Shown here: one piece after another, positions 1,452 through 3,171 of the stretch
Position numbering within the stretch: position 1 is the first letter of the stretch
Layout: every line of letters begins with the position of its first letter
From: Pseudoalteromonas shioyasakiensis
GTDB lineage: Bacteria > Pseudomonadota > Gammaproteobacteria > Enterobacterales > Alteromonadaceae
Direction: 5' to 3'
NCBI RefSeq assembly: GCF_001550135.1
Contig: NZ_LRUE01000024.1
Coordinates: 62,001-126,000, forward strand
DNA: 64,000 bases
Position numbers and translations under genes: made by a program
The notes under the pieces: model-generated
The model's database searches: none
Told to the model about the DNA's origin: nothing
Seen by the model: only the letters and a program-made list of their open reading frames with translations

Positions 1452-1479
1452 TTGTACCGTCTGTTGACTTTGTTATACT
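1452..1479 (+). promoter_or_regulatory. Candidate sigma-70 promoter upstream of ORF 1598 / cyo region
   Basis: TTGTAC at 1452-1457 and TATACT at 1474-1479 are separated by 16 bp. The -10 matches consensus at 5 of 6 positions, the -35 at 4 of 6. Transcription would start near 1486, just before the palindrome at 1491-1508. Assignment is by pattern only. Confidence 0.4.
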
Positions 1480-1490
1480 CCACATCGAAA

Positions 1491-1508
1491 TTTCAGTAAT
1501 TACTGAAA
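1491..1508. promoter_or_regulatory. Perfect 18-bp palindrome, candidate operator
   Basis: TTTCAGTAATTACTGAAA is its own reverse complement with no spacer. It lies about 11 bp downstream of the candidate -10 box, where a bound repressor would block initiation or early elongation. I do not recognise the cognate regulator. Confidence 0.5.
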
Positions 1509-1597
1509 CTTTATTGATGAAGATCATGTTACCGCATTAAAAAATAGGGTAAGCCACTTACCTCAAATGCAGTAAAAGCGATAAAAAGGCGTGAGTT

Positions 1598-2017
1598 TTG
1601 CGAGCAATTAATCAGTCACAAGGTGTCAAACAGTCTAGCTTAGCTAGATTGCAATTGGCTGCGCGTGCGTTTTTTGCTGGTAAAGAGCTAATGTCAGTTT
1701 TAGCCTTGTTGCTGATTAATTCAGCGATGCTAATCAACGGTACATTAGAAGATGCTCAAGGGCTAAGAAGTTTATTAAGCGAAGGTGCTTTATACGAAGC
1801 ACCATTGCTTAACGTGTTGAGTTTTTTAGCTTACCCTGTGGTGTCTTGCCAATTACTTATTGGTTTATGCTGGTTGGTCTTCCATTTCTTCCCTGCGCGT
1901 CGTGCAGGTGTCATTTTACGTAAAGCGGCCTTCGCTGCGCGTGAAACGATAAAGTCTTTAGTAGTACACAGCGCTCATGGCTGTCGTGCTCCTCCTCGTG
2001 TAAGTGGTTGTCTGTAA
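1598..2017 (+). CDS. Unrecognised small membrane protein upstream of cyoA
   Basis: This 139-residue ORF starts with TTG, the first possible start after an in-frame stop at 1592, with an AAGGCG-like ribosome site just upstream. I do not recognise the family. Two hydrophobic stretches are visible, about residues 32-50 and 70-98, the second followed by a basic segment (FPARRAGVILRKAAFAARE). The C-terminus is unusual, with two cysteines and two prolines in HGCRAPPRVSGCL, and the coding DNA there is richer in C than its surroundings. It sits between a likely promoter with palindrome and a terminator-like hairpin, 239 bp before cyoA, so it may be the first gene of, or a regulator beside, the oxidase operon. 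ATG codons inside (for example 1691) are alternative starts. Confidence 0.5.
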   Translation: MRAINQSQGVKQSSLARLQLAARAFFAGKELMSVLALLLINSAMLINGTLEDAQGLRSLLSEGALYEAPLLNVLSFLAYPVVSCQLLIGLCWLVFHFFPARRAGVILRKAAFAARETIKSLVVHSAHGCRAPPRVSGCL

Positions 2018-2081
2018 ATGAGCTTTGTTGCTTAAGTTCAGCCATTTTAGTCATTTTCTAAGTTGTCTTTACTAAGCACCT

Positions 2082-2139
2082 AGTGGGATTTTTACGCCCA
2101 AATTTCAGTCAGCCAACCTAATAAAATCCCTCACTTTTT
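2082..2139 (+). terminator. Terminator- or attenuator-like hairpin before cyoA
   Basis: AGTGGGATTTT (2082-2092) pairs with AAAATCCCTCACT (2123-2135), leaving two bases of the downstream arm unpaired, and runs into TTTTT. The loop is about 30 nt, which is long for an intrinsic terminator. Its position between the orphan ORF and cyoA suggests partial termination or attenuation of read-through into the oxidase genes. Confidence 0.4.
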
Positions 2140-2256: not shown

Positions 2257-3171
2257 TTGTCAATTCGAAACCTTTGTAATATTGCTCTAGCGTCTTTAGT
2301 GCTGGCTTTGTCTGGCTGTAAAGGCGGGGTACTCGATCCAAAAGGTCAAATTGGTGTCGACGAGAAGTATTTAATTATCGTAGCTACGGTGTTAATGCTG
2401 ATTGTTGTGATTCCAGTTATTGCCATGACAATTTATTTTGCATGGAAATACCGTGATGGACGAGATCAAGAAATTTACGCTCCAAAGTGGGCGCACTCTA
2501 ATAAGATTGAAGCTGTAGTTTGGACCATTCCTATCATCATCGTTGCGATTTTAGGTGTGATCACGTGGCAGTCAACGCAACAACTTGACCCATATAAACC
2601 ACTTGAGGGTAAAGGTAAGCACCTTACTGTTGAGGTTGTTTCTTTGAACTGGAAATGGTTATTCATTTATCCAGAACAAGGCATCGCCACAGTGAATGAG
2701 CTTGTTTTTCCTGCCAATGTGCCAGTGCAGTACAAAATCACCTCAGAAAGCACCATGAACTCGTTTTTCATTCCACAGCTTGGTAGCCAAATTTATTCAA
2801 TGGCCGGTATGGAAACAAAGCTTCACTTAATCGCTGATGAGCCGGGTACTTTTAAAGGCTTTTCTGCTAACTACAGTGGTGCAGGTTTCACTGGTATGAA
2901 GTTCGATGCCATTGCAACAGCCACAGAAGCTGATTTCGATGCTTGGGTAAACAAAGTAAAAAATACCGGTTCTGCATTGACTAAGCAAAGCTATGTTGAA
3001 CTTGCAAAACCAAGTGAATACGACCCAGTTAAATACTATGCCAGCGTAGATAAAGATATGTTCCATTCAATCGTAATGAAATATATGCAAGCGCATGGCT
3101 CTCACGGTGCAATGCAACACGCTATGCCAGAGCACTCAGCTCATAAAAAGCACAGCGAGGACGAGGAATAA
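2257..3171 (+). CDS. cyoA: Cytochrome bo3 ubiquinol oxidase subunit II
   Basis: Subunit II of the heme-copper quinol oxidase, anchored in the inner membrane with a periplasmic cupredoxin-fold domain. The start is TTG, chosen because AGGA lies 7 nt upstream and a lipoprotein signal follows with lipobox LSGC and Cys21 as acylation site. Two membrane helices follow (about residues 37-65 and 86-106), then the periplasmic domain with [22 protein letters not shown]. The CuA cysteine and histidine ligands of cytochrome c oxidases are absent, as expected for a quinol oxidase. The C-terminus is a histidine-rich tail ([20 protein letters not shown]). It is followed after 2 nt by cyoB. Confidence 0.96.

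Follow-up and report, generated by a model that had tools for sequence, protein, structure and literature searches.

Repressors of the GbsR type have been described for cytochrome bd operons: DNase footprinting placed the Alishewanella protein CydE on TATTTCAGAAATTTCTGAAAGTTCA and on another site of dissimilar sequence (PMC6096048), and CioR is a second repressor of this kind (PMC11837568). A different type of control element is the arrest-peptide leader, examples of which are known or proposed to precede genes of the secretion machinery, the gene of a copper importer and certain genes connected with metals and thiols. The motif RAPP forms the core of the known arrest peptides ApdA, ApdP and CruR, and is reported to cause a stall in which the ribosomal P site holds the third residue of the motif (PMC10951233, PMC10987492, PMC12992588). 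Proteins carrying RAPP tend to be small, to have the motif near the C-terminus and to be encoded upstream of genes that they may regulate, although efficient arrest was not seen for most of the natural RAPP-like proteins assayed from E. coli and B. subtilis (PMC10987492). Nascent membrane proteins can exert force on the chain still held by the ribosome: a transmembrane helix is described as pulling from the point at which its first end lies about 45 residues from the reaction centre until its last end does, and for one GlpG helix the force peaked with the middle of the helix at 45 residues (PMC7886326).

Among the literature matches listed, none tied an arrest peptide or RAPP leader to cyo or to a respiratory oxidase. 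In its main text, PMC12992588 names other targets and does not use the words 'oxidase', 'cyo' or 'cytochrome'; the leader described below may be among its unnamed cases. The window analysed here, a 64,000 nt stretch of the Pseudoalteromonas shioyasakiensis genome, includes the region upstream of cyoABCDE (Table 1). It is likely, judging from sequence comparisons, that two stacked controls precede this operon: a CydE-type repressor acting at a palindrome, and a membrane-inserted RAPP arrest-peptide leader acting post-transcriptionally. Conservation, synteny, motif, geometry and purifying selection are the observations behind this proposal; from them we infer binding by the repressor, ribosome stalling, the signal and the direction of control.

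Table 1. Features upstream of cyoA, in window positions (clade hairpin: locus handles)
Feature	Position	Strand	Description
Promoter	1452..1479	+	Weak -35 TTGTAC (1452-1457); extended -10 TGTTATACT (1471-1479)
Candidate CydE-type (GbsR/MarR) operator	1491..1508	none	Perfect 18 bp palindrome TTTCAGTAATTACTGAAA
FNR/Anr-like box	1514..1527	none	TTGATgaagATCAt, just 3' of the palindrome
Leader ORF, 139 aa	1598..2017	+	TTG start; two hydrophobic segments, acidic loop, C-terminal HGCRAPP; proposed arrest-peptide leader
HGCRAPP codons	1976..1996	+	Predicted stall position: Pro132 in the P site, Pro133 in the A site, placed by analogy with PMC12992588 and PMC10987492
Tentative RNA helix P1	2006..2114	+	2006-2014 and beyond (3' end of the ORF) paired with 2102-2114; in the MFE fold of 2000-2270
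Tentative RNA helix P2	2115..2243	+	AACCUAA (2115-2121) with UUAGGUU (2237-2243); in the MFE fold of 2000-2270
cyoA	2257..3171	+	TTG start; TIGR01433, E 3.9e-108; first gene of the proposed controlled operon
Clade hairpin	L009-L016, L119-L130, L139		CCCAAGTTAACTT...AAGTTAACTTGGG, between leader and cyoA

Promoter, palindrome and candidate regulator

The product of cyoA scores 360 bits with TIGR01433 (cut-off 266), and 239 nt separate the gene from the leader ORF, copies of which in P. shioyasakiensis, P. gelatinilytica and P. lipolytica UCD-48B records are 97-99% identical. The sequence-only reading had placed a promoter and a perfect 18 bp palindrome at the head of this region. The palindrome is indeed present, starting 11 nt beyond the -10 element. 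The promoter held up in its extended -10, which is good and recurs as TG[TCA]TATA[CA]T in all 52 cyo loci of the genus with CyoA of at least 75% identity (one of them, G090, in two pieces, one of 70%); its -35 is poor, and a consensus promoter scan did not list it.

In each of these 52 loci the best-matching copy of the palindrome lies 10-11 nt after the -10, with 0-5 mismatches; twenty copies are perfectly self-complementary, and the other 32 retain 6-8 of the 9 arm pairs. As the second-best site in the 52 regions has 4-7 mismatches, the assignments in the 31 loci with 3-5 mismatches rest on position and spacing, not on score. The adjoining box, named from what we take to be the FNR/Anr consensus, matches with at most one mismatch in 10 in 41 of the 52 loci and with 3-5 mismatches in the other 11. 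The operator was not seen in 20 leader loci outside the genus (best site 5-8 mismatches), nor upstream of the divergent CyoA copies of the genus (47-50% identity; 5 of 17 examined, L141-L145; best site 5-7 mismatches).

Within the window the palindrome is matched once at up to 3 mismatches, against 0.09 expected. The only other site with up to 2 mismatches in the 4.8-Mb genome has one mismatch and is directly upstream of cydA, while at up to 3 mismatches there are 17 sites, these two included, versus 15 for a reversed control pattern. A site with up to 2 mismatches is found in 107 of 108 genomes of the genus; since the control pattern, at this tolerance, also turns up 0-6 times in each genome, the case for an operator rests on position. 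The best site of 30 genomes (L027-L056) precedes the cyo leader in 6, cydA in 8, a cio-type cydA homologue in 14 and neither in 2; 13 of the 14 cio-type sites are immediately followed by the start of a MarR-family gene (neighbourhood read in L028 and L035). In L064, a MarR-family regulator gene alone lies behind the palindrome. A perfect copy elsewhere (L057 2968-2985; G030:C54:147667-147684) has neither cyoA nor cydA nearby, and is flanked by what we take to be an M61-peptidase-like gene and a UPF0126-like membrane gene.

The first CydE footprint contains an 18 bp palindrome, TTTCAGAAATTTCTGAAA, identical to that of the window at 16 of 18 bases (PMC6096048), and from this resemblance, together with the placement of its copies, the palindrome is very probably a CydE-type operator. 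Footprinting across relatives, as the sequence-only reading had suggested for finding the regulator, recovers a site kept at every genus cyo locus examined and points to a regulator of the CydE type. The corresponding protein of this genome is encoded elsewhere in it (G000:C7:373299-373835) and is 77% identical to the cio-linked regulator; the latter matches Pfam MarR_2 and scores 45.5 bits, below the cut-off of 218, with the NCBIfam profile of the choline regulator CudC, its class being taken from these profiles. A single copy of the regulator gene is present in 107 of 108 genus genomes; the remaining genome is a 3.6-Mb assembly in one contig. In this genome it has no oxidase gene directly beside it in 5 kb (L146 1797-2354), and a weak site, TTTCTGAAATTTTTGAAT (L146 1769-1786, 5 mismatches), ends 10 nt before its ATG. 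A site with two mismatches is present about 15 nt ahead of the regulator gene in G008, G061 and G067.

The repressor encoded on contig C7 would bind the palindrome just past the extended -10 and block the promoter; it probably acts likewise at cydAB, with the FNR-like box adjoining the palindrome at cyo. That some other regulator serves the palindrome is considered quite unlikely. Such a reading would fit the weak site upstream of the regulator gene in this genome, and binding by the CydE-like protein is itself a prediction. Against it stand the near identity to the CydE footprint and the position of the site in relatives, directly before the regulator gene and cio genes.

A conserved leader ORF ending in RAPP

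The leader ORF, whose C-terminus reads HGCRAPPRVSGCL, lies between operator and cyoA in 52/52 genus loci, so that promoter-operator, ORF and cyoA occur together throughout; the layout of a regulated leader gene, put forward earlier, is thereby supported, as is the synteny with cyoA that had been named as a check on it. In all 52, HGCRAPP followed by 1-9 residues forms the C-terminal end, the peptide being invariant while 6 of its 7 codons vary synonymously, and 35 residues separate a W-x-x-F-[HY] motif from HGC. Values of dN/dS over the last 66 codons were 0.05-0.32 in nine pairs: the leader ORF is under purifying selection at the peptide level. Leader and cyoA are co-directional, at a distance of 235-688 nt in the genus and 132-625 nt in 20 distant loci. 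Pfam returned no match above cut-off for the leader ORF or 14 relatives (nine genus and six distant leaders in all), the best among the nine genus members being PspB at E 0.0019, with cut-offs listed for the first of the nine; NCBIfam gave no match for the leader ORF, and the two Rfam matches fell far below their gathering scores. A single AlphaFold prediction had no confident structure (pLDDT 53).

A profile of nine leaders, searched at E ≤0.01 in 394 genomes of the order, matched in 33, of which 31 are outside the genus. Twenty of these 31 were read, and in every one the translated ORF ends in RAPP and is followed by cyoA and cyoB. Among the other 11, six were confirmed as leaders and five are partial matches (E 0.0018-0.0063), some of which are chance, because the cyo locus of one of them (G456) has no leader. 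CyoA was found at E 1e-60 in 119 of the 394 genomes, with at least 65% identity in 36; 33 of these, including 31 of the 34 that lie outside the genus, have RAPP at the C-terminus of a leader. The outside-genus leaders have strongly diverged, keeping the hydrophobic segments, the acidic loop, the C-terminal RAPP and the adjacent cyoA, and HGC becomes HGS, LGS, FGC, HSC or RGC. Across all loci collected, 2563 distinct frames of at least 60 aa were found, 80 of which end in RAPP, and 80/80 of those have [GSN][CS]RAPP.

The leader is dispensable, since three close cyo loci, all of one genus, have no RAPP leader (G407, G359 and G470; L220, L222 and L226). These genomes are natural comparison cases for cyo without a leader. 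More divergent cyo loci had no leader in any of 50 examined: 16 from the 83 order genomes with CyoA below 65% identity, 29 from a class-wide sample of 41 further CyoA genomes (two with only about 300 nt upstream) and the five loci of the divergent genus type.

Leader RNA

The RNA of 2000-2270 is more stable than its shuffles (z -3.17), values in 28 loci chosen from the clades ranging from -6.2 to +0.1. A hairpin with T-run before cyoA had been proposed from the sequence, with attenuated read-through into the operon. The T-run region is present at about 2081-2139; as a main terminator the hairpin was rejected as weak, for it is not listed by the terminator scan and lies outside the MFE fold, and within the nearest clade the T-run is kept at just 7 of 13 loci. 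Attenuation as such is possible. One Pseudoalteromonas clade of 21 loci has a stronger candidate, a conserved long hairpin that is identical in its stem strands and has T-rich sequence after it; this hairpin is absent here (Table 1).

Beginning nine nt past RAPP, a stretch of the leader RNA can pair with sequence about 75-125 nt downstream in many loci, not all, and its sequence changes by clade. In a scan of ORF-end pairing over 52 related, and so non-independent, loci the shuffle p was ≤0.1 in 41 and 0.13-0.85 in 11; the best partner is another segment in L005 and L112-L114, and an unconstrained duplex scan stayed at shuffle level for most loci. Pairings like helix P1 occur with changed sequence in part of the other loci. 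Helix P2, which adjoins the cyoA Shine-Dalgarno TAGGA (2245-2249), is by eye not clearly kept in the alignment of clades B-D. No RNA switch conserved across all clades was found in the loci scanned. A two-state switch, in which the end of the ORF and the cyoA Shine-Dalgarno region would compete for one strand, is not claimed, since both helices form together in the MFE fold and P2 is not clearly kept in other clades.

Proposed arrest and alternative readings

Kyte-Doolittle profiles of 79 distinct leaders (48 from the genus, 31 others) have two hydrophobic segments separated by a loop that is net negative in 79/79; the best two 19-residue windows average 1.9-2.1 (lowest printed 1.50), these being picked as maxima so that two are always returned. 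From the centre of the second segment to the P-site proline there are 39-60 residues, with medians of 46 in the genus and 43 in the others, over a scanned range of 25-75. The ORF would be a leader made in order to stall, inserting as a two-segment hairpin. On reaching R130-A131-P132 the ribosome would pause before P133. At that moment the second hydrophobic segment would be 40-50 residues away from the peptidyl-transferase centre, the separation at which a nascent chain is pulled by its insertion into the membrane, and efficient insertion would release the pause. Through the fold of the leader mRNA, its translation or its access by Rho, pause or release would then change cyo output, which the pause may raise or lower. 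The signal sensed may be insertion, membrane potential or copper.

The cyo operon encodes a heme-copper oxidase, and the leader might accordingly resemble CruR, with the nascent H-G-C beside RAPP binding copper, freeing the stall and coupling the oxidase to copper supply. The heme-copper assignment is supported by the Bordetella bo oxidase (CrpH paper, PMC13038864), HGC is invariant in the 52 genus loci and CruR is itself a copper-responsive RAPP leader (PMC9426467). We nevertheless regard a copper-sensing leader as unlikely: DUF2946 (PF11162) gave no match to the window ORF up to E 10, or to nine genus and six distant leaders up to E 1, CXXC occurs in 0/52 genus leaders, and the CruR CXXC is placed 45 residues before RAPP, residues beside the motif sitting deep in the tunnel. 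Copper binding by HGC was rejected as a general rule, H and C both varying in other genera. Less likely still is that the ORF encodes a small membrane protein acting after its synthesis, as an accessory subunit or assembly factor of the oxidase, its RAPP tail being incidental. Conserved hydrophobic segments, a conserved charged tail and tight synteny with cyoA would suit such a protein, but its body has diverged strongly around an unchanging RAPP, always 1-9 residues from the stop, and the ORF is missing from the 50 more divergent loci examined and from three close ones. The earlier suggestion of an oxidase assembly or sensing factor is kept for sensing, which fits a putative arrest peptide of the RAPP type; assembly has no positive support.

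A further idea is that the leader acts as a voltmeter, the membrane potential pulling the acidic loop across the membrane, freeing the RAPP stall and tuning a proton-pumping oxidase to the cell's own proton-motive force. The positive-inside rule likewise predicts acidic outer loops, and because of this, and because non-acidic stretches also release, voltage sensing is offered as a possibility, and an improbable one. A review describes acidic residues in SecM being pulled by membrane voltage strongly enough to release it, with basic and uncharged stretches also raising release, which simple pulling by voltage does not explain (PMC6028853).

Comparison with known systems

A conserved arrest-peptide leader on a terminal oxidase would, if real, mean that ribosome stalling also tunes respiration, and would provide a defined system for asking what frees a stall, be it membrane insertion, voltage or copper. 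Were it a voltmeter, energy from respiration would feed back directly on the synthesis of the enzyme that generates this energy. If the CydE-type operator is shared, cyo, cyd and cio would belong to a single oxidase regulon.

At the level of transcription, the closest described systems are two GbsR-type repressors that act on cytochrome bd operons, CydE from Alishewanella and CioR from Chromobacterium. The likeness lies in the palindrome, with its 16 of 18 identical bases, in a MarR-family regulator weakly similar to the GbsR-like CudC profile, and in the many relatives in which the operator precedes the regulator and cio genes. Unlike in those systems, the operator here also precedes cyo and, in trans, cydA, and the regulator gene is elsewhere in the genome.

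For the leader, CruR of Bordetella pertussis (DUF2946) is comparable in being an ORF of about 140 aa with a C-terminal RAPP, a signal for export or the membrane, and much intergenic DNA ahead of the gene it regulates; the leader here differs in having no DUF2946 match or CXXC, in its two hydrophobic segments and in its target, a terminal oxidase. ApdA, ApdP, SecM, other RAPP/RAGP arrest peptides and MifM combine a C-terminal arrest motif with a localisation signal, as this leader is predicted to do, and MifM, a monitor of membrane insertion, offers a parallel to its proposed role. Leaders of that kind precede secA, secDF or yidC, whereas this one precedes the operon of an energy-conserving oxidase.
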